NCBI GenBank assembly: GCA_018335675.1
Contig: JAGXRQ010000096.1
Coordinates: 1 to 54,207, forward strand
Source of the DNA: Bacteroidota bacterium
GTDB lineage: Bacteria > Bacteroidota > Bacteroidia > Bacteroidales > UBA7960
Length of the DNA stretch: 54,207 bases
Direction: 5' to 3'
In this document: positions 30,920 to 53,521 of the stretch, one piece after another
How the letters are laid out: each line of letters starts with the position of its first letter
Numbering within the stretch: the first letter of the stretch is position 1
Notes under the pieces: generated by a model
Seen by the model: only the letters and a program-made list of their open reading frames with translations
Database searches by the model: none
What the model was told of the DNA's origin: nothing
Program-made: the position numbers and the translations under genes

Positions 30920-32767
30920 ATGAAAACACTAGTAAAAATTTTCGGAATCGTCTTACTCTTCACAACTGCGTGCACAAGCACATATCGCGCAGGAAGCGCA
31001 TACGACGATATTTACTACAGTCCGGCCCGAGAAGTTCCAGCTGAACAAGTTGTTACAAAGGGACAGGCGACGGTAGTTGAGAGGCCGGCAGGAGCCAGCC
31101 AAACCTACTCTGAAACCTCAGATTATCAGAGCGACACTGCTTATTATGAAGGAGACAATAAAAATACTTCAACTCAATCTAGCAGTAGTCAAGAACCTTA
31201 CAGCACTGAAACATATTATGATGAAGAAGGAAACACTTATATCACAAATAACTATTACGGTGACTCCTACGATTATACTTATGCTGCTCGTATTAGAAGG
31301 TTTCACGGTGGCTATTACGTAACTTACGCTTACTACGATCCTTATTATACAAACATGTATTGGTATACTTACGACCCATATTATTATGGAGTAAGCATAT
31401 ATATGGGATATGGTGCTCACGGCTTTTATTATCCTGGATATTACTATCCTTGGAGATATAGATACTACTACGGACCTTACTATCACAACCCATATTATTA
31501 TGGATATTATCCTTATGGAGGATATGGATACTGGTCAGGCTATTACGCAGGGTATCATGCAGGATATCACAATGCATACTGGAATCAATACTATTACTAT
31601 CAACATTTCTACAACAGCTACGATAGAAACAATTATCATTACGGACCTCGCGACAGTCACACCGGAACATCAACTACAACCGGAGGTACTGGAGGAAGAA
31701 CACGTAACTCAACCTTGGCTGAGAAATATGAGAATACTGTAGCAAATGAGCGCAGCATAAGGGGAGAAAACAGATCAGATGGTCAAACTAGACCAGTGGA
31801 AGCAACAAGACCTACTGCAACTGAAAGACCGGAAAGAGACATAACTCCTGCTGAAGCAAGCAGACCTGCTGGAGGAACAAGACCGTCAACTGAAGGTACT
31901 AGGCCAGCAGTTGAAGGAACTAGACCAGCAAGTGATCAAACTAAGCCGGTTGAAGCTACTAGGCCAACTGAAACTTCAAGACCTGTGGAGTCTACAAGGC
32001 CAACTGAAGTAACTAGACCTGTAGAAGGAACCAGACCGTCAGGAACAACCAGGCCAACTGAAACAACTAAACCTGCTGAAACAACAAGACCTGCAGGAAA
32101 TCAGGCTCAACCTGAAAGATATCAACCAAGTAGAACTCCGGAAAGTTATTCAACACCTTCTCGTGATTCTCAGGAAAGATATGCCAGACCACAATCTGCT
32201 CCTTCAGGAAGCCAAACGAGAGAAAATGCAACTCAGAATCGTACGCCTAGGACTTACACATCGCCGAGTTATCAGCAACCAAAATCAACTCAGCAATATA
32301 CTAGTCCCCAAAGCGGAAGAGCGCCTGCATCAACTCAACAAAGACCGGAGCAAGGGGTAGAACAAAGGCCACAACAAGCTCAACCTACTCAGCAACAGCA
32401 AAGACCAGCACAGGCTCAACCTACTCAACAGCAGCAAAGGCCTCAGGCTCAGCCTCAAAGACAAGAAACTAGGCCACAATCTGCTCCGCAGCAGACAACA
32501 AGGCCTCAGACAACTCAACCTCAGAGAGAACAAACAAGACCTGCTCCTAGTCAGCAAACACAACCTGCAAGGCAACAGCCAAGCAGTAACAGTGGCACAC
32601 CATCTGTAAGCCCATCATCAGGCAGCAGAAGTAGCGGAAGCAGTTCTGGCAGTTCAGTAGGTAGCAGTTCTTCAAGAAGCAGCTCAGATTCATCATCAAG
32701 CTCAGGCAGATCTTCAAGTTCGTCGAGTTCATCAAGCTCTTCAAGATCTAGTGGTGGAAGAAGGTAA
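30920..32767 (+). CDS. low-complexity Tyr/Pro/Gln/Ser-rich lipoprotein
   Basis: A 615-residue lipoprotein: the signal ends FTTACTSTY (Cys18). It then divides into blocks. Residues about 85-250 are Tyr/Gly rich (many YYG, YYP and GYH steps). Residues about 290-395 hold about 16 copies of a TRP-type unit, consensus TRPxExTRP, such as ETTRPAGNQ. Residues about 395-555 are Pro/Gln/Arg rich (QPTQQQQRPAQA). The last 60 residues are nearly all Ser and Gly, ending RSSGGRR. No catalytic motif. Related Bacteroidota proteins have been labelled 'vitellogenin' from composition only. It is probably a surface-exposed, repeat-expanded lipoprotein. The OmpP1-like barrel follows after 70 bases. Confidence 0.8.
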   Translation: MKTLVKIFGIVLLFTTACTSTYRAGSAYDDIYYSPAREVPAEQVVTKGQATVVERPAGASQTYSETSDYQSDTAYYEGDNKNTSTQSSSSQEPYSTETYYDEEGNTYITNNYYGDSYDYTYAARIRRFHGGYYVTYAYYDPYYTNMYWYTYDPYYYGVSIYMGYGAHGFYYPGYYYPWRYRYYYGPYYHNPYYYGYYPYGGYGYWSGYYAGYHAGYHNAYWNQYYYYQHFYNSYDRNNYHYGPRDSHTGTSTTTGGTGGRTRNSTLAEKYENTVANERSIRGENRSDGQTRPVEATRPTATERPERDITPAEASRPAGGTRPSTEGTRPAVEGTRPASDQTKPVEATRPTETSRPVESTRPTEVTRPVEGTRPSGTTRPTETTKPAETTRPAGNQAQPERYQPSRTPESYSTPSRDSQERYARPQSAPSGSQTRENATQNRTPRTYTSPSYQQPKSTQQYTSPQSGRAPASTQQRPEQGVEQRPQQAQPTQQQQRPAQAQPTQQQQRPQAQPQRQETRPQSAPQQTTRPQTTQPQREQTRPAPSQQTQPARQQPSSNSGTPSVSPSSGSRSSGSSSGSSVGSSSSRSSSDSSSSSGRSSSSSSSSSSSRSSGGRR

Positions 32768-32837: not shown

Positions 32838-34271
32838 ATGAAAAAGATAAAAATTATATTGTCGATTATGTTGCTTTCAACTTTAAGCATAAATGCTCAA
32901 AATGCAGCAGATGCACTAAGGTTCTCATACCTTAACTATGGAGGCACAGCAAGATACATGGGCATGGGCGGTGCATTTGGGGCTCTCGGTGGTGATTTTT
33001 CAACTCTTAGCACAAATCCGGCAGGAATAGGCATATTTAGAGGTTCAGAGTTTACAATTACTCCTTCTCTAAATTACAGCTCTGCAACTTCAAAATATTA
33101 TGGATTGACAGATGAAGATATAAAATACAGCTTCAATATGAAGAATATTGGATTTGTCTTTTCAGTGCCTTTCACAACAAGAGCTGACGAATCAGGAATG
33201 AGATCAATAAATTTCGGATTTGGCTTAGTTCAGCACAACAACTTTAACAATAGGATGGTAGCCGAAGGGTTTAATAACGAAAGTTCAATAATGACTCATT
33301 TTCTTAATGAAGCAAATCAATTTGGATTGAAACCATTTACAACTCAGCTTGCTTATGACACATGGCTGCTGGGGACAGACAATGGAGAATATTTTGTTGA
33401 CATGCCAGACGGCCAGGTTTTCCAAAGAATGGAATCAAATACATCCGGATACATTCAAGAACTTGTTTTCTCTTTAGGAGGAAATTATAATGATGTTGCA
33501 TATTTTGGCGCTACAATTGGAATTCCTTCTGTAAGATATGAAAGCAATTTTGTTTTCAACGAAACAGATGTTGAAAATTTAAGTGATGAATTCAACTCAT
33601 TACAGTTTAAACAATCTTTAAAAACAGTAGGAAAAGGATTTAATTTTAAGCTTGGAGGCTTATTCAGGATAGCTGACATAATCAGAATTGGTGCTGCTGT
33701 GCATACACCCACTTTTTACAATCTAGAAGATGAATACAAGAACACTATGACTTCCGATTTAAATTTAGCTGAGGATCATCCAACTGAAGCAAAATCTCCA
33801 ATTGGATTATATGATTATGAATTAAATACCCCATTGAGAGGAATAGGAAGCGTTGGAGTAGTAATTGGAAGCTTAGGAATAATAAGCGTTGATTATGAAT
33901 ATGCAAATTATTCCAGCATGAGATTAAGAAGCGATGATTATCTATTTACAGATGAAAACAGAGCTATTAGAGATACTTTTAAAGAACAACATGGTGTAAG
34001 AATCGGTGGTGAAGTGAATCTATCTCCAATTTTCTTGAGAGGTGGTTATGCTATGTACACAGGCCCTGTTAAAGAAGGCAAAACAGATTTAAGTAAAAAT
34101 GCAATATCAGCAGGGATAGGGATTAGGGATAAGAGCTATTTTTTAGATTTTGCTTATGTATATAATATGTATAATGAAGATTTTTATCCATATACTAATG
34201 CCGCAATAAAGCCTGCAAATGTTGGCTACACTCAAAGTAATTTCGTTTTAACGCTTGGCTTGCGTTGGTAA
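32838..34271 (+). CDS. OmpP1/FadL-type outer-membrane protein
   Basis: A 477-residue barrel protein with signal peptide ending SINAQ. The mature start GGTARYMGMGGAFGALGGDFSTLSTNPAGIG is the conserved N-terminal hatch region of this family (split here by reading, residues about 35-65). The remainder is alternating beta strands ending VLTLGLRW with terminal Trp. Members import hydrophobic compounds or belong to surface-protein machinery (PorV-type). The exact substrate is unknown. It may share a transcript with the lipoprotein upstream and ends at a strong terminator. Confidence 0.82.
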   Translation: MKKIKIILSIMLLSTLSINAQNAADALRFSYLNYGGTARYMGMGGAFGALGGDFSTLSTNPAGIGIFRGSEFTITPSLNYSSATSKYYGLTDEDIKYSFNMKNIGFVFSVPFTTRADESGMRSINFGFGLVQHNNFNNRMVAEGFNNESSIMTHFLNEANQFGLKPFTTQLAYDTWLLGTDNGEYFVDMPDGQVFQRMESNTSGYIQELVFSLGGNYNDVAYFGATIGIPSVRYESNFVFNETDVENLSDEFNSLQFKQSLKTVGKGFNFKLGGLFRIADIIRIGAAVHTPTFYNLEDEYKNTMTSDLNLAEDHPTEAKSPIGLYDYELNTPLRGIGSVGVVIGSLGIISVDYEYANYSSMRLRSDDYLFTDENRAIRDTFKEQHGVRIGGEVNLSPIFLRGGYAMYTGPVKEGKTDLSKNAISAGIGIRDKSYFLDFAYVYNMYNEDFYPYTNAAIKPANVGYTQSNFVLTLGLRW

Positions 34272-46557: not shown

Positions 46558-46590
46558 AAAAAAAGCCTCAATTACTTGAGGCTTTTTTTT
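46558..46590 (+). terminator. bidirectional terminator after ssb
   Basis: GCCTCAA (46565-46571), loop TTAC, TTGAGGC (46576-46582), flanked by seven A and eight T. The T run overlaps the stop codon of the convergent 46589-49459 gene, so both transcripts end here. Confidence 0.9.
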
Positions 46591-49459
46591 ATCCAATCCT
46601 GTACTCTAGGCTCAATCTAGATTGATGGTCTGATAGGTTAGCAATAATTTTCTTGAGCATTATTTTTTCTAAATCCGACAACAGTTTGGTTTGAATCTGA
46701 TTGTTAACGATTGTATTAGATTCAATCTGCTTAAGTTGATTTTTAATTCTTAGCAGCATTAGAAATCTGTAGGCTTGTTCAATTTCTTCTTTCACGGAGT
46801 CGGTAACAGCATCAGCAGACTGCAGAGCAAAAAGTCTTTCAAGTGTATTTCTTTCCCCTATACCAAATTTAAGCGACCATAATCTTACAATGCTTGTAAT
46901 AGCAAGCATTGGGAGTTTTACATCATAAAAATCAACATGTTTTGAACTTTCAATAGCATATAACTTTAATGATACAGTGCTTTGTGCAAGATTATAAAAA
47001 AACACATTTTTATCTTTAAGGGTTTTTTGACAAAACTGCTGAAGTTTGTTTGCGAGATCAAAATCACCGAAAACAGGTCTGAAATCAAAAAATATTGAAA
47101 TATTAAGTATTTCCTGAGGGTTTGGTTTATCAATCCATTCCAATATCATCTTTTTCCATGCTTCTAGCTCCATGCACCATTGTTTATTCAATGCCATTAC
47201 GCCACCCTTACACAATGGATATCCGGCTTTATTAAGCTTATTGCAAACAATATCGCCTAATTTCAAAAAATACTCTTGTAAAACCTTAATATCCTCATTT
47301 GAGTTATTTTGAAATAAGATGGCATTATCCTGATCTGTAGCAAGAGTTTGTTCTCTCCTACCTTCACTACCCAGGGCTAAAAAAACGAAAGGTACAGGAG
47401 GCTTACCCACCTCACCAATTGCCTCATTAATTAGTTTCTCTGTAATTGTATCTGACAATTTACTAATGAGCTTACCCGTTGTTGCTACTCCTGTTCCTGT
47501 TTCGACCAAGGTTGATATTAATCTTGGCAATCGGTTCATAGCCTCATTAATTTCATATACTGATTCAGATTTTTGTATTGCATTGATTAAAAACTCAGGT
47601 GTGTCTTTCCTTAATTCAGAAAGACGAATAAGACTAATATAAAAATGTGTTTTATTATCTTGAGAATTTACTACAATGTAAGAAACATGGTGTTGCATCA
47701 TTAAAGAAAAAGCATCCATTACCATATCATCTTCCGAAACGGCAATTATGGGAGAACTCATAATTTTTGCTACAGCAATTGAATCGTCATTTCCTGATGC
47801 AATAACTCTTCTGCTTATATCACTATGCGTAACTAACCCCATTATATCTTCCTGATCATCAACAACTAAGATTACATCCGACTTAGCAGCAACCATTAAT
47901 TTGGCAGCAATCTTAACACTGGTTTTTAGTTCGCACTTTGGGGCAGGCAGCATAAAGTCCTTTACCGGTTGCAAAAGAACATTAGCAGATAATTGAACAG
48001 AAGGAGCATTTTTCTTAAAATCAGAATCTCTACTGAGATGATCGTATGCATCAATAATAACACCATCGCAATAATTAAGCTTGCCATCAGCGTCTTCAAC
48101 CGGGAATAAAGAAACCATTGCCATAAGCACAGTACCATCTCCTCTTCGAATTCTAATGAGTTTATCTTTTACGTGAATTCCTTCATTGATTGCCCTAACA
48201 ACATCTTTTTTCTCATCAGACAAATCAAAGAGTTCCTGCACATGAGTGTCTTTCAATTCATATTGAGATGAGTAACCAAGAAGCTCAAGAGCTTTAGTGT
48301 TAATTTCAGTAAACCTAGATTGCCTTCCAAGTGTGCATCTAAAAACACCAATATTCATTAACCCTGCTATGGACTTGAATTTCTCCATACTAAGATCAAG
48401 CTCTTTCTCAACATTTTTGTGTTTTGAAACATCTTTTACTGCATAAATAAATCCCACTTTGCCTTCAATTTCAAACTTTGAAATATTAATAACCACATCT
48501 ACAAGAACTCCGTTTTTCTTTTGAATTTTCTTCTCAGACGATAGTTCCGAAGGTTTTAATTGATCAGTATTATTAATATTATTTTTATTACCAACAATCT
48601 CATTCAAAGTTTCAATAAGGATATAATTATGCTCATCAAATTCAAGCTGAGAATATCCCAGCAGATTTAGCAAATAAGGATTACAGTATACAATTTCGTT
48701 TTTAATTACCATTAGAACGCCGTCGGTAGAAGCTTCAACAAGTTTTTTATATCTATGCATTGAGTCTCTGAGTCTTTCTTGGGCTGCATTCCTCTCTTGT
48801 TCAGCAACATAATTTCTTCTGGCCAGATAACTAATTATAGTGCCAATTAGCAATGTTATCAGAAGAGATATCCATACAACTTTTCGAGTTAGGTTCGATA
48901 TTTCTTTTTTAACATCCTCGATATAAATTCCTGTTCCAACAATCCAGCCCCATGGTTCATAAGATTTTACATAAGATAATTTAGGGACAATTGTAAGGCT
49001 ATCATCTTTCCACTGCCAATCGTACTCAACATAACCATCGCCGCCATTTTTAACAATATTAACAATATCAACAAAAAAGTTTCTTCCTCTAGAATCTCTA
49101 TAATCAGACAAATTCGTTCCCATTAAATTTGTTCTGTAAGGATGCATAATCATCACCGGGATTGTATCAGTAATCCAGAAATAATCTTTGAGTTCATCGC
49201 CGTATCTCATATCGCTAATAATCAATGATGCTTCTTCCTTGGCATCATTAATGTCAAAACTCTCATCAATCATAGCATCCAGCTTATGCATTACACTCCA
49301 GGCCGTATTAGTAAGCTCCCTGATTGTTTCTCTTTTTCCGTTCATTAGGCTTTCTCTGTAATTCGGAATCACAAAAATATAGATGGCAGCAAGAAATAAT
49401 AATACTGCAGCCATTGAAGGGAGTAGTATTCTGAAAAAGAATTTCGTGTTATTTATCAT
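46589..49459 (-). CDS. membrane Cache-PAS-PAS-CBS-CBS-nucleotidyltransferase protein
   Basis: A 956-residue multidomain signalling protein. Order: membrane helix (about 8-30); periplasmic sCache_2-like sensor (about 35-190: DYFWITDTIPVMIMHPYR, DGYVEYDWQW, WGWIVGTGIYIEDV); second helix (about 193-212); two PAS domains (about 225-345 and 355-470, with YKKLVEASTDGVLMV and GVIIDAYDHLSRD); paired CBS domains (about 495-625, HSDISRRVIASG, KIMSSPIIAVSEDD); a GlnD-like DUF294 nucleotidyltransferase (about 640-790, catalytic GSEGRREQTLATDQDNA); and a DUF294 C-terminal helical domain. No kinase, GGDEF or methyl-accepting output. sCache_2 domains commonly bind small carboxylates and CBS pairs bind adenine nucleotides. 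It follows a metallophosphoesterase by 12 bases and ends the symporter locus. Confidence 0.88.
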   Translation of the reverse strand: MINNTKFFFRILLPSMAAVLLFLAAIYIFVIPNYRESLMNGKRETIRELTNTAWSVMHKLDAMIDESFDINDAKEEASLIISDMRYGDELKDYFWITDTIPVMIMHPYRTNLMGTNLSDYRDSRGRNFFVDIVNIVKNGGDGYVEYDWQWKDDSLTIVPKLSYVKSYEPWGWIVGTGIYIEDVKKEISNLTRKVVWISLLITLLIGTIISYLARRNYVAEQERNAAQERLRDSMHRYKKLVEASTDGVLMVIKNEIVYCNPYLLNLLGYSQLEFDEHNYILIETLNEIVGNKNNINNTDQLKPSELSSEKKIQKKNGVLVDVVINISKFEIEGKVGFIYAVKDVSKHKNVEKELDLSMEKFKSIAGLMNIGVFRCTLGRQSRFTEINTKALELLGYSSQYELKDTHVQELFDLSDEKKDVVRAINEGIHVKDKLIRIRRGDGTVLMAMVSLFPVEDADGKLNYCDGVIIDAYDHLSRDSDFKKNAPSVQLSANVLLQPVKDFMLPAPKCELKTSVKIAAKLMVAAKSDVILVVDDQEDIMGLVTHSDISRRVIASGNDDSIAVAKIMSSPIIAVSEDDMVMDAFSLMMQHHVSYIVVNSQDNKTHFYISLIRLSELRKDTPEFLINAIQKSESVYEINEAMNRLPRLISTLVETGTGVATTGKLISKLSDTITEKLINEAIGEVGKPPVPFVFLALGSEGRREQTLATDQDNAILFQNNSNEDIKVLQEYFLKLGDIVCNKLNKAGYPLCKGGVMALNKQWCMELEAWKKMILEWIDKPNPQEILNISIFFDFRPVFGDFDLANKLQQFCQKTLKDKNVFFYNLAQSTVSLKLYAIESSKHVDFYDVKLPMLAITSIVRLWSLKFGIGERNTLERLFALQSADAVTDSVKEEIEQAYRFLMLLRIKNQLKQIESNTIVNNQIQTKLLSDLEKIMLKKIIANLSDHQSRLSLEYRIG

Positions 49460-49471
49460 ATTATCAGTGTT

Positions 49472-50212
49472 TTATCCAATTAAACACGGAGTTATTTCAT
49501 AAGAGTCATTATCATATAATAAATATGTACCAGATTTTCTACCTCCTGTAACAGGAGGGCAAAACACAATTCTATAGTTGGTTTTTATTGAAAATGGCTC
49601 ATATCTTGGAGCCGACCAAAACAATTTGCCGGCTATATTAACCCCACTAGGATGCGCATGTCCGGAAAAAGCAAGTTTAGCATCACATTCTTCCATAAAG
49701 GCAAAATGCTCTTTAAGTTCACTAATTTTGTAAGGAAACCACTTCCCTATTCCAGACATATCAGGCTTTATAAAATGCGAAAACAAGATATTATATTTAT
49801 CTGTAGCAACAACTTCAAATTCTTTTAAACCTTTTAGAAAGCTCATATTCTTTTCTGAAATAATAGGAATGACCTCTTCCTCATAGAGCCAAAGAGTATT
49901 ATTGGCTATCTTTTTTCTCTGTTCTATTGAAAGAGTATACCAGTTGTCCGGGATATTTTTTTCATTATAATACGAAGGTAGTCTTTGACTGTTGAACAAG
50001 TCGTGATTTCCTGCAATAACGATATCAGCCTCCTCTCTAATCAAATCAATACATGCATTTGCATCCGGTTTGTGGTCGTAAAACTCTCTTGCAAAGCCGG
50101 TAATATCTCCAAGACAAATAAGCAAATCAAATCCTTTGGATTTAATTGATTTGAATGCCTTTTCAAGCATAGAAATATCTTCATGTATGTCGGAGAGGAT
50201 TGCTATTTTCAT
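49472..50212 (-). CDS. calcineurin-like metallophosphoesterase
   Basis: A 246-residue phosphoesterase with all metal-binding blocks: SDIHED (about 7-12), CLGDITG (about 34-40), AGNHDLF (about 89-95), SHFIKPD (about 145) and SGHAHPSG (about 182-189). The substrate (phosphate monoester, diester or nucleotide) is unknown. It starts the pair with the 956-residue nucleotidyltransferase protein, 12 bases downstream. A nucleotidyltransferase next to a phosphoesterase suggests that one could reverse the other's modification; this is inference. Confidence 0.88.
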   Translation of the reverse strand: MKIAILSDIHEDISMLEKAFKSIKSKGFDLLICLGDITGFAREFYDHKPDANACIDLIREEADIVIAGNHDLFNSQRLPSYYNEKNIPDNWYTLSIEQRKKIANNTLWLYEEEVIPIISEKNMSFLKGLKEFEVVATDKYNILFSHFIKPDMSGIGKWFPYKISELKEHFAFMEECDAKLAFSGHAHPSGVNIAGKLFWSAPRYEPFSIKTNYRIVFCPPVTGGRKSGTYLLYDNDSYEITPCLIG

Positions 50213-50315
50213 GCACTCAGCTGGTTTGTTTCAAAGTTACTAAAATTAAAAAACAAACAGTTAATAGCTGCATTTTTTTAAAACAGAATAAAGAAACGAT
50301 AAGACCAGAAAGGAT

Positions 50316-51068
50316 TTACAACCTGTCTTTAGGAAATATTTTCCTTAATGTACTGCGCTTTTTTTGAGGTTGATCAAACAAAACATTAAGATTATTCTCT
50401 GCAGCCAGATTATCGGGCCATAATTCTAAAGCTTTGAAATACATATTTATTGCATTATCATATTCTCCACGGTGTCTTAAAATAATGCCATAATTTGCAT
50501 AGCTCACCGATAATCTTCTTGGAGTTTCAAACTGAGCCTCTTTTATTTGCTTAACTCTTTTCTTTAAATACCTGGAAATATTCTTGTTTTCAAATGCAAT
50601 ATCATTTTCGCTAAAATAGGGCTGTATTAAGATTTTTATTTCATCATCATTTAGATTTTCATAAACTTCAATCCAAGATGTATAAATATCTATGCTTTTT
50701 AATGCATTTATTTCAGCCGACTTAAGCAGAGAATCTTTAACAATACTGTCGTTTGCATTTAGCGCGAGAGAGATGTATGCAGCAGCTCTATTATTATAAA
50801 GAACTCCAACCTCATATGATTGCGAATAATGATCAAATTCTAAATAAATATTTTCAATAGAATCCATTAAAACAAAAACCGAGTCGTACTGGGCATTTTC
50901 TGCATATTTATTATACTTCTCATAGAGTAGATGAGCGTCATACACACGAGGATCTGTTGAGAGGTTTTCGTATTTATAATACCAATCAGCAATTACGATT
51001 GCTAAAATGAAAAGAGTACCCATCACGAGGATGAGTACTCTAGAGGTTTTATTCTTTAAAAATTTCAT
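50316..51068 (-). CDS. membrane-anchored TPR protein
   Basis: A 250-residue protein with a short cytoplasmic start, one membrane helix (about 11-29: VLILVMGTLFILAIVIADWYY) and a mostly alpha-helical outside part. VLYNNRAAAYISLAL (about 88-102) and ANYGIILRHRGEYDNAINMYFKALELWPDN (read in pieces, about 192-221) are TPR units. The end is basic (RSTLRKIFPKDRL). No enzyme motif. It starts 3 bases after the symporter stop, so it is in the same operon and may link it to the phosphoesterase and nucleotidyltransferase that follow. Confidence 0.75.
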   Translation of the reverse strand: MKFLKNKTSRVLILVMGTLFILAIVIADWYYKYENLSTDPRVYDAHLLYEKYNKYAENAQYDSVFVLMDSIENIYLEFDHYSQSYEVGVLYNNRAAAYISLALNANDSIVKDSLLKSAEINALKSIDIYTSWIEVYENLNDDEIKILIQPYFSENDIAFENKNISRYLKKRVKQIKEAQFETPRRLSVSYANYGIILRHRGEYDNAINMYFKALELWPDNLAAENNLNVLFDQPQKKRSTLRKIFPKDRL

Positions 51069-51071
51069 TTT

Positions 51072-52745
51072 CTATAAATGTACCTGTTCAACCAAAAACT
51101 TGCGAATTTCGATAGGTGTTGGTTTAGTAAGTTTAGAAACAATAATATTAACTAAAATTGCAAGAGGAGCACCTATCCATGCAAAATACCAAGCTCCTAA
51201 CCAGTATTCAACAAATTGATGATAAGGCAAAACTATACCCGATTTTCCGAAAATAAAATAGGATATAGAAACGACTGAAACCAATACCCCTGCGATAAGA
51301 CCTGCAATAGCACCTTGTTTATTGGATCCGCTCCACCAGATTCCAAGAAGGAATAATGGGAAAATTGTACATCCGGCAAGTGAGAACGTAAGAGCAACCA
51401 ATTCAGCGATAAGAGCGAGTTCCAACATTGCAATAAAAGCCACGATAATAGCCATTAAAATTGTTCCCAATCTGGCAATCATCAATTGTTTTTTTGCAGT
51501 TGCTTCAGGGTTAATAACTTTCACATAAAGGTCGTGAGAGAAAGCCGAAGCACCTGTAACAAGCAATCCTGAAACAGTAGAGAAAGCAGCAGAAACAGCA
51601 CCTGCAGCAAGAAGACCTACAATCAGAGGATGAATATTGCCAAGCTGAGCTGTATAAACTACGATAGCGTCTTTGGCAAGAGAGCCTACTTCAGGGTGTG
51701 CTGCAAGAATTTTTCCAAAAGCAGCATAAACCGGAGCTGTCCAATACAAAATACAAATAAAGAACAAACCCCAAACTACTGACCATCTAGCATCTTTAGA
51801 ATTTGGAACAACATAAAATCTTTGGATTACGTGTGGTAAACCGGCAGTACCAATCATAAGAGCAAAAACGATAGCCATCCACTGGAAGAATGTTCCGCCT
51901 GATGAAATTGCCCAAGGCATAGCAAATTCAGGAGATGCAACTATAGAAAAATGATGACCATAACTATTAAATAGTTCTGCACTATCAGCAATAGATATTC
52001 CTGAAACAATGTCAGAAACAACCGATCCATATCCAATAGGAGGTAGCAGCCAGAAATAATCATATTTAAACAACAGGATAAAAAGAGGAATTAGGAAAGA
52101 GACAATAATAATAACGTATTGAATCTGCATGTTTTTTGTAACACCAAGCATACCAGAGATAAGAGTGTAAGCCAAAACTACTCCACCACCGATCAATAAT
52201 GCATAAACATAATCAATGCCCATAATCCACTTAAACATAATACCTATGCCACCAAACTGGGCAACACAATAAGCGATAGAAATAAGTATAGCAAGTATAG
52301 CTCCGAATATTCTAAGTCCTTTTGAATAAAATCTGTCGCCAATAAAATCGGGAGCAGTATATTTACCGTACTTTCTAATTTGTCCGGCCATAAGAATAAG
52401 CAGCAACACATAACCGCCTGTCCAACCAACAACATAAGCAAGTCCGTGATAACCTGTTCCAAACATAAGAGCAGCCATACCAAGGAAACTTGCTGCACTC
52501 ATCCAGTTTGAAGCGATAGCCATACCGGAGCCAACTCTGGAAATACTTCTTCCGGCAGCATAATAATCAGATGTGTCTTTGGCGCGGAAAATAATTCCAA
52601 CCATCACGAAAGTAACTAATACACATATTAATATAATAGCAGGACCTAATTTAAAACTGCCTTCAAGTTCGGTTGCTTTTGCTGCTGCGTGAGTAGATAC
52701 AGACACAAGGAGCATTATAATTAAGAATAATATCTTTTTCATCAT
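51072..52745 (-). CDS. sodium:solute symporter, ActP-like
   Basis: A 557-residue transporter of the SSS family. Like E. coli ActP it has an N-terminal signal-like segment (MMKKILFLIIMLLVSVSTHA), then about 13 membrane helices. Family motifs: DYYAAGRSISRVGSGMAIAS with WMSAASFLG, YTAPDFIGDRF, GMLGVTKNMQIQYVII and, near 305-335, GTAGLPHVIQRFYVVPNSK. Acetate or another short carboxylate is the likely substrate by similarity; this is not certain. The DUF4212-like gene lies 29 bases upstream and TPR 3 bases downstream. Confidence 0.85.
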   Translation of the reverse strand: MMKKILFLIIMLLVSVSTHAAAKATELEGSFKLGPAIILICVLVTFVMVGIIFRAKDTSDYYAAGRSISRVGSGMAIASNWMSAASFLGMAALMFGTGYHGLAYVVGWTGGYVLLLILMAGQIRKYGKYTAPDFIGDRFYSKGLRIFGAILAILISIAYCVAQFGGIGIMFKWIMGIDYVYALLIGGGVVLAYTLISGMLGVTKNMQIQYVIIIVSFLIPLFILLFKYDYFWLLPPIGYGSVVSDIVSGISIADSAELFNSYGHHFSIVASPEFAMPWAISSGGTFFQWMAIVFALMIGTAGLPHVIQRFYVVPNSKDARWSVVWGLFFICILYWTAPVYAAFGKILAAHPEVGSLAKDAIVVYTAQLGNIHPLIVGLLAAGAVSAAFSTVSGLLVTGASAFSHDLYVKVINPEATAKKQLMIARLGTILMAIIVAFIAMLELALIAELVALTFSLAGCTIFPLFLLGIWWSGSNKQGAIAGLIAGVLVSVVSISYFIFGKSGIVLPYHQFVEYWLGAWYFAWIGAPLAILVNIIVSKLTKPTPIEIRKFLVEQVHL

Positions 52746-52774
52746 ATATCGTTTTAATGTTATTGTTAGAAAAA

Positions 52775-53521
52775 TTAAGCCATTTGTTCCTGTTTTTCTA
52801 TTTTGTCAGTTTCTACACAGTATATCCAGCATAATCCAACAAAAAGAAATAATAGAAATACAGCGGAATAGAAATAATGAAACGGAAAACCAAGGAAGTT
52901 AAAATCAGTAAGGAATGATCTGTTGTGTGTCATATAGAGATTCATGGCCTTTTCTGTTAAAGCTTGATTTTCAGCAGTAAATTCATCTTTCATGTCTGCA
53001 TTAATAGAAAACGGAACTGCTATAATTTTAACATCAGTAGTACTTATTCCAAGAATATCAGCAACATCGGCTTCAAGCTTTTTCCTTGATTGGATGTAAG
53101 TTAGGTCAGCAATATTGTCGCTTGAAGATTTCAATTCATTGAATGCCTCAACATTGTGACAAAGCTCGTCGAGTTCATCGCCTGCAATCTGAAACAAGCT
53201 ATAATTAAATGCATTAGAAAGAGCTGTTTTCATGTCAGGTTCAATATAAATTTTACCTAAACATTGCAAAACTGAATTTGCAAATACTTTAAGTTGTGCC
53301 TCAGATGCATTTCCATCTTTAACATCTGTCCATACTGCATTAAACTCAGTAAGAGCAGGTTCCGGTGTAGGCTTTCCAAGCAGCTTTAAAGTTATTTGGA
53401 ATCCAAAGATAGCAACAGCCCAAACTATTATTAGCTTAATGACCATGTTTCTGTTTCTCCTGGCCCGGGTAGTCACAGGCTTAAAAAAACTTACGTGATA
53501 ATCGTTGTTTGTATTCTCCAT
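52775..53521 (-). CDS. DUF4212-like small symporter subunit with a large insert
   Basis: A 248-residue protein with two membrane helices (about 26-47, MVIKLIIVWAVAIFGFQITL; about 215-238, FHYFYSAVFLLFLFVGLCWIY). The end NFLGFPFHYFYS and VETDKIEKQ resemble DUF4212, the small subunit often encoded before ActP-like symporters. Ordinary DUF4212 proteins are about 80-100 residues; here about 155 soluble residues lie between the helices, perhaps a periplasmic domain. I do not recognise its fold. It starts the five-gene minus-strand locus. Confidence 0.6.
   Translation of the reverse strand: MENTNNDYHVSFFKPVTTRARRNRNMVIKLIIVWAVAIFGFQITLKLLGKPTPEPALTEFNAVWTDVKDGNASEAQLKVFANSVLQCLGKIYIEPDMKTALSNAFNYSLFQIAGDELDELCHNVEAFNELKSSSDNIADLTYIQSRKKLEADVADILGISTTDVKIIAVPFSINADMKDEFTAENQALTEKAMNLYMTHNRSFLTDFNFLGFPFHYFYSAVFLLFLFVGLCWIYCVETDKIEKQEQMA

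Follow-up and report, generated by a model that had tools for sequence, protein, structure and literature searches.

Proteins with a DUF294 domain are encoded beside acetate-type symporters in several phyla. The present work concerns a variant of this arrangement found in the window, viz. the entire stretch of 54,207 nucleotides on contig JAGXRQ010000096.1 from a member of the Bacteroidales (assembly GCA_018335675.1), where five genes on the minus strand (46589-53521) encode a symporter, its small subunit and three other proteins, one of which joins an sCache_2 sensor domain to a DUF294 nucleotidyltransferase (NTase) domain and is referred to here as a Cache-NTase. In the known form of this arrangement, as seen on the Shinella plasmid pShin-06, genes for a DUF4212 protein, a symporter, a DUF294 protein, a hypothetical protein and an exonuclease are present together; Skermanella has the DUF4212, symporter and DUF294 genes with a hypothetical gene, and Vibrio pelagius has a DUF294-exonuclease pair without a symporter. 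The Shinella and Vibrio loci bear out the Proteobacterial gene arrangement named in the original prediction, which was made from the letters of this DNA alone. In Pseudomonas aeruginosa, PA3232 and PA3233 presumably encode a nuclease and a CBS-DUF294 protein. It is reported that PA3232-PA3235, inclusive of a gene for an ActP homologue, are upregulated during growth on propionate, that PA3233-PA3235 are downregulated after the addition of propionate, and that deletion of PA3234 caused no defect in propionate growth (PMC9765439). For the chemoreceptor PscD, another report lists seven residues in contact with propionate (Tyr90, Trp92, His103, Phe126, Tyr143, Trp145 and Lys156), and the whole set is common to the C2/C3-carboxylate-binding proteins PscD, McpP and Adeh_3718 (PMC5062169). 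In a literature search whose scope left most subscription journals outside, no paper was found on the Cache version of the DUF294 proteins or on the DUF294 reaction, and the name DUF4212 was likewise not found.

Based on the results described below, the window locus is tentatively interpreted as a transmembrane monocarboxylate sensor that would drive reversible nucleotidylation and thereby tune an ActP-like uptake system, an interpretation to which we give somewhat less than an even chance of being correct. The list of open reading frames (ORFs) agrees with the five genes and the short gaps (29, 3, 103 and 12 bases) originally described, and the order of transcription is: extended DUF4212 small subunit (52775..53521), symporter (51072..52745), TPR-like protein (50316..51068), calcineurin-like metallophosphoesterase (MPE; 49472..50212) and Cache-NTase (46589..49459). 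The last of these, a protein of 956 amino acids, has, based on Pfam matches and hydropathy, the architecture TM-sCache_2-TM-PAS-PAS-CBS-CBS-DUF294-DUF294_C, where TM is a transmembrane helix. Its sCache_2 domain (residues 39-190; 48890..49345) is followed by one PAS domain at residues 231-354 (48398..48769; TIGR00229 and Pfam) and another at residues 380-470 (48050..48322; PF13426), a CBS pair at about residues 494-612 (47624..47980; Pfam, NCBIfam and fold match), the DUF294 domain with the motif GSEGRREQTLATDQD (47114..47533; Pfam and motif reading) and the helical DUF294_C domain (46601..46948; Pfam). With the module consisting of a cyclic-nucleotide-binding (cNMP)-CBS-DUF294 protein and an exonuclease, which is present on pShin-06 and also in the Bacteroidota loci L028 and L050-L055, this locus shares the families of the symporter and the small subunit, the CBS-DUF294-DUF294_C output and the presence alongside of a phosphodiesterase-type gene. 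However, the proteins of that module have an N-terminal cNMP domain, whereas the window protein has no cNMP match and contains a transmembrane Cache-PAS input instead; the module has a downstream exonuclease, whereas the window locus has an upstream MPE gene and no adjacent RNase_T exonuclease; and an insertion of ~150 residues in the small subunit as well as the TPR protein are extra in the window locus. The sensor thus has its own Cache domain, as had been noticed earlier, but this observation needs the correction that the domain occupies the position of the cNMP domain in the exonuclease-linked proteins.

The sCache_2 domain scores 129 bits against its Pfam model (cut-off 25) and aligns to the PDB entries 4k08 and 5g4y. 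All seven of the PscD contacts are present in it, viz. Y93, W95, H106, F129, Y146, W148 and K160, and all seven are also retained in 22/22 Cache-NTase fusions. Further, in a control set of 30 sCache_2 loci from 116 genomes of the order, the complete set of contacts was found in 16/16 NTase fusions as against 2/14 other sCache_2 domains. These contacts are shared with the sCache_2 chemoreceptors PscD, McpP and Adeh_3718 (PDB 5g4y, 4k08); however, the output of the PscD-type chemoreceptors is a methyl-accepting signalling domain, whereas that of the Cache-NTases is a nucleotidyltransferase. The sensing of a carboxylate, as originally predicted, is well supported by the completeness of this pocket, so far as sequence can indicate it, and the Cache domain probably senses acetate-like C2/C3 acids outside the cell. 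Acids of this kind are predicted to be both the ligand and the cargo of the transporter, because of the seven-residue pocket and because a second kind of symporter found near Cache-NTases is MctC/ActP-like; the exact ligand is a prediction of the same kind. One of the two non-fusion domains that retain all seven contacts is in locus L126 (minus strand, 1-2100; genome G090), joined, as read by eye, to a PAS-histidine kinase-receiver protein; this genome has no DUF294 match, and the same input is here combined with a different output.

For the output half, an AlphaFold model of CBS-DUF294-DUF294_C was built from three sequences (mean predicted local distance difference test score (pLDDT) 66, predicted template modelling score (pTM) 0.60). 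Over the NTase and helical parts, its best PDB match is one half of GlnE (Z 23.6, 335 residues, root-mean-square deviation (rmsd) 4.0), followed by the other GlnE half (Z 23.2, 308 residues, rmsd 3.5) and by DrrA (Z 21.3), an AMPylating protein. The next rows are CBS pairs (Z <=15.2); to judge from the PDB entry titles, the ligands of the matched CBS domains are AMP, ATP or c-di-AMP. In GlnE and GlnD a nucleotidyltransferase fold is likewise followed by a helical domain. However, the window protein is only 11-14% identical to them over the structural alignments, it has by Pfam a single NTase domain and neither the second NTase domain of GlnE nor the HD domain of GlnD, and it carries a membrane sensor in front and has its phosphoesterase as a separate protein; in GlnD, the removal of the nucleotide is carried out by the fused HD domain. 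A further source places DUF294_C in the same Pfam clan as the C-terminal domains of GlnD/GlnE and the HEPN domains (PMC3710099). The motif GS-x-G/A-R...D-x-D is retained in 22/22 Cache-NTases. The MPE, a protein of 246 amino acids, scores 68.8 bits against Pfam Metallophos (cut-off 21.5) and retains the motifs DxH, GD, GNHD, H and GHxH, and across 26 sequences the conservation of its metal motifs is 95% or higher. Its comparison with the PDB gave a single row (E 0.039), and hence no activity can be transferred to it from there. From the GlnE/DrrA fold, the clan of DUF294_C, the motifs of the MPE and the analogy with GlnD, we infer that the DUF294 half would nucleotidylate a target and that the MPE would reverse this reaction.

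The distribution of the partner genes was determined from 43 DUF294 loci. DUF294 was matched in 22/118 genomes of the order and 24/247 genomes of the class, and the loci which were read comprise the window, L024 and L025 (both from a contig scan with a single-sequence query), 20 of the 22 other rows from the order sample (two weak rows were left out) and 20 of the 30 other rows from the class sample; some of these loci also supplied the sequences for the family hidden Markov models behind the locus counts. By their N-termini, 22 of these loci are of the Cache type, 13 are of the cNMP type and 8 have neither domain or are cut. An MPE gene is present within 500 bases on the same strand in 16/22 Cache loci, 0/13 cNMP loci and 1/8 others, whereas an RNase_T (DnaQ-like) exonuclease gene, three of which were checked by Pfam, is found within these limits in 0/22, 13/13 and 1/8, respectively; Fisher tests on these counts and on the co-occurrence counts given below ignore relatedness. 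The MPE gene lies upstream of the NTase gene and the exonuclease gene downstream of it. The suggestion that the phosphoesterase takes the exonuclease's place therefore holds insofar as the two alternate, but the change is one of partner and not of place. In one case (L030:8325-10376), the gene directly after an MPE gene encodes a DUF294 protein that has PAS and CBS domains but neither a Cache nor a cNMP match, and due to this the MPE partner is not strictly tied to the Cache domain. In the NTase tree, in which 18/51 inner branches are starred, 15 are open and many are weak, two changes of partner are required and, among the Cache rows, four changes of symporter kind (L088 is labelled 'other' here since its stretch cuts the N-terminus, and L045 is truncated). 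The NTases from the window and from L024 ('Bacteroidales bacterium UBA2287', which among the named relatives found is the closest, with 64% NTase identity over the best segment) are sisters (100/100) although their symporters are of different kinds; this speaks for the Cache-NTase/MPE pair as the stable unit, to which either acid symporter can be joined.

Recurrence of the neighbourhood, on which the original prediction depended, was found in other Bacteroidales genomes, where the gene order is extended DUF4212, symporter, TPR, often a porin-like gene, MPE and Cache-PAS-CBS-DUF294. Seven of the 22 Cache loci lie near a symporter of the window type and six near the second symporter kind; the extended subunit is seen in 6/7 of the former, L026 being cut by the contig start. 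In all, the extended subunit was matched (E<=0.001) in 40/393 genomes of the order, or about one tenth, with three of these matches (G053, G375 and G462) being weak, partial or fragmentary. The 53 symporter loci which were read consist of 39 of the extended type (inclusive of L026, whose subunit is cut off, but exclusive of L066, whose symporter is off the contig, of the weak G053 and of the G462 fragment) and 14 others. Among the extended-subunit loci with enough downstream sequence, the symporter gene set is followed, on either strand, by a porin-like gene in 22/29, by an MPE gene in 14/27 and by an NTase gene in 13/22, counts that miss genes placed upstream. In the 118-genome order sample, a Cache-NTase is present in 9/9 genomes with the extended subunit versus 7/109 others (the window's genome is included, the weak G053 row is excluded, and G030, with the truncated NTase of L045, is counted as without Cache), and the two occur together even where they are on different contigs (G007, G058 and G109). 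The window's own genome has a single DUF294 match and a single sCache_2 match. A DUF294 match, not in every case checked for the Cache domain, is present in 21 of another 30 genomes that match the extended subunit. The linkage of the extended-subunit symporter with the Cache-NTase is thus well supported. Among plasmids, 343 records match part of the window NTase and none covers 80% of it; one stretch read from a Vibrio plasmid carried no annotation.

Two other genes were repeatedly observed in these surroundings. The porin-like protein, of ~420 residues (L027:6584-7840, L035:6596-7861, L042:6681-7919, L039:10875-12146 and L048:12321-13580), has its gene between those for the TPR protein and the MPE, or next to the NTase gene; it is missing from the window operon. 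No Pfam or NCBIfam match was obtained for this gene (G418) in the proteins tried, and the label 'porin-like' reflects a signal-like start and a terminal aromatic residue, which suggest an affiliation of this kind. Further, in five symporter loci a gene for a Crp-like regulator lies divergently beside the DUF485 or extended DUF4212 gene (L037:5205-5894, L040:8725-9411, L042:2544-3233, L088:3124-3813 and L095:3171-3860); by Pfam, the L040 protein has a cNMP-binding domain and a helix-turn-helix.

The window symporter (557 amino acids) matches Pfam SSF and scores 499.3 bits against TIGR03648 (cut-off 320.75), the match being split in two stretches. By NCBIfam it thus belongs to the VC_2705 branch, relatives of ActP and MctC, and it is predicted to carry out acetate-type transport. 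The ActP/MctC monocarboxylate symporters are of the same SSF family but, unlike them, the window's own symporter is of the VC_2705 branch, and it is the second symporter kind near Cache-NTases that is closest to the MctC/ActP models (two of its six proteins were tested). In L024, this second kind scores 447 bits against the MctC model and 415 against the ActP model, below their cut-offs of 670 and 750, and it is accompanied by a DUF485 small subunit in 5/6 loci (one Pfam-confirmed). The small subunit in the window, an extended DUF4212/TIGR03647 protein of 248 amino acids, scores 34.9 bits against TIGR03647 (cut-off 26.05), and the match is limited to model positions 30-73 of 77 and to residues 202-245 of the protein, or 204-244 by Pfam, because of the presence of the ~150-residue insertion. 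This insertion (52913..53380), which was missed in the original prediction, stands in the alignment before the conserved GFPFHYFY segment and between membrane helices at residues 27-45 and 210-228, and it is absent from the short DUF4212 proteins (84-112 residues) of the same class. Two helices are seen in 37/38 relatives, and the charge places the N-terminus inside in 36/38; the insertion is accordingly positioned by hydropathy and charge as a segment predicted to face the periplasm. A single-sequence model of its fold had a mean pLDDT of 44.5 and was not used, and a search of the small subunit against PDB sequences gave four weak, unrelated rows (best E 0.013).

The TPR-like protein (250 amino acids) has one N-terminal membrane helix and a weak family match (best 25 bits, below the cut-off of 27.8). 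Its gene follows within 300 bases of the symporter in 35/36 extended-subunit loci with room for it, the sole exception (L090) being a broken locus, where the extended-subunit operon is in fragments (L090:4194-6800; G452). The gene was not found after the symporter in any of the 14 loci with other small subunits, six of which bear a Cache-NTase. One N-terminal helix is predicted in 36/36 relatives, and by net charge the N-terminus is inside in 23, tied in 6 and opposite in 7 of them, the corresponding numbers by Lys/Arg alone being 14, 10 and 12; a periplasmic location of the repeats is therefore only weakly predicted. We read the TPR protein, together with the small-subunit insertion, as a pair of accessories that belongs to one of the two transporter types. 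That the TPR protein may be the target of the NTase, as was originally proposed, is weakened: as a common target it is disfavoured because no TPR gene follows the symporter in the six loci where a Cache-NTase accompanies the second symporter kind, and the topology does not decide the matter. A terminator-like hairpin of 12 pairs with a T-rich tail is located within the first codons of the TPR gene (51013-51041, minus strand), and it could lower the expression of the genes past the symporter or be due to chance; 7 terminator-like sites were seen in the region versus 4.2 expected.

If the tentative interpretation given above is correct, then acetate-like C2/C3 acids would bind the periplasmic Cache domain, and the signal would run via the membrane helix and the PAS domains to the CBS-gated DUF294 domain. 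This domain would attach a nucleotide, which by analogy with the fold relatives of the domain is most likely AMP, to a cytoplasmic target, and the neighbouring MPE would take off the nucleotide or its product. As the target, the symporter or those tails of its small subunit that lie in the cytoplasm would be the most plausible, since both transporter types have in common, facing the cytosol, an SSF symporter with a two-helix subunit; the TPR protein and the subunit insertion would be a separate accessory of one type. The direction in which uptake would be controlled is part of the same prediction. A number of results weigh against this interpretation. The model of the output half has a pLDDT of 66 from three sequences, and a shared fold is no proof of activity; the nucleotide and the target are predictions; and no MPE is known to remove AMP from a protein. 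A conserved tyrosine in the N-terminal tail of the small subunit, Tyr8, was considered as the site of modification, but it is conserved both with and without an NTase in the genome and is thus uninformative. In the stretches read, 9/22 Cache-NTases lack a symporter and 6/22 lack an adjacent MPE, some of these loci being at contig ends. Similarly, 9/30 of the further extended-subunit genomes have no DUF294 match (in one of these, G579, the contig ends within a Cache gene), and hence the symporter can exist without the enzyme and the link, strong as it is in view of 9/9 versus 7/109, is not obligatory. The Crp-like gene beside five related symporter loci suggests that the control there is transcriptional. 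Lastly, relatives of acetyl-CoA synthetase are encoded in 9/13 cNMP loci (two Pfam-confirmed) but in the stretches of 0/32 Cache loci, and due to this the acetate link of the sister system is not directly transferable.

Some of these results are also accounted for by other explanations. If DUF294 synthesises a small nucleotide or oligonucleotide signal, lengthens one, or adds tails to RNA, then the MPE or exonuclease would degrade the product, and the signal could adjust uptake or expression, e.g. via a nucleotide-binding regulator. The alternative partner in 13/13 cNMP-type genes is an RNase_T-type exonuclease, relatives of which cut nucleic acids, and both partners are of phosphodiesterase families, which would allow a nucleotide chain as the shared substrate; the nucleotides bound by the CBS fold matches and the Crp-like proteins encoded beside the symporter are also consistent with this. 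However, the closest folds are the GlnE domains and DrrA and not RNA or messenger enzymes, and the Crp-like gene is present in only 5/53 symporter loci and is not seen in the window, where 686 bases of contig remain upstream of the first gene. We regard this explanation as on the whole unlikely, but with a sizeable share of the probability. The NTase may, instead, control some other target in the cytoplasm, e.g. a metabolic enzyme or a transcription factor, the symporter being co-located because both respond to the same acids; this would fit the Cache-NTases without a symporter, the position of the Crp-like gene and the acetyl-CoA synthetase relatives of the sister system. However, no such relative is encoded in the Cache loci, and the five large neighbour genes that were tested by Pfam are unrelated to one another, the survey of neighbours being confined to these and to acetyl-CoA synthetase; this possibility is considered remote, and slightly more so than the one considered next.

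The Cache-PAS-CBS protein may, alternatively, act as a nucleotide-gated scaffold that binds the symporter or another partner without covalent modification, with the MPE serving in a separate metabolic step. Cache-NTases without an adjacent MPE and symporter operons in genomes without any DUF294 match would both be expected from this, but a scaffold needs neither the GS-x-G/A-R...D-x-D motif, which is intact in every Cache-NTase, nor the highly conserved metal motifs of the MPE, and on this account it appears improbable. It is less probable by far that the genes are unrelated transcription units which lie side by side by chance. The 103-base gap and the hairpin in the TPR gene, as well as the convergent or separate placement of the genes in L038, L042, G007 and G109, could be understood in this manner; however, the same order in other genomes and the co-occurrence in all nine extended-subunit genomes of the order sample, as against 7/109 others, speak against it. 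Outside of this locus, the most GC-rich part of the window has two plus-strand ORFs, of 615 amino acids (30920-32764) and 477 amino acids (32838-34268), for which no Pfam match was found at E 1e-4.

The association of the Cache-NTase and the MPE with an acetate-type uptake system suggests an unstudied switch for food uptake. The Bacteroidales version of the DUF294 proteins makes the question of their reaction testable, as its input has a predicted ligand, its output has a predicted reaction class and the phosphoesterase is a candidate for the reversal. The insertion in the small subunit and the companion TPR protein form a second unexplained feature, of a transporter that is present in about one tenth of the genomes of the order that were searched. 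In a more general form, which we regard as doubtful, the Cache-NTases would represent a one-component transmembrane class, in which the binding of an extracellular acid directly controls a reversible switch by protein nucleotidylation, with the Cache-CBS-DUF294 protein as the writer and the MPE as the eraser, that sets the activity of SSF uptake. If this is true, then these proteins could be placed, as receptor nucleotidyltransferases, next to the known receptor kinases and cyclases, with the MPE acting as a protein de-nucleotidylase.

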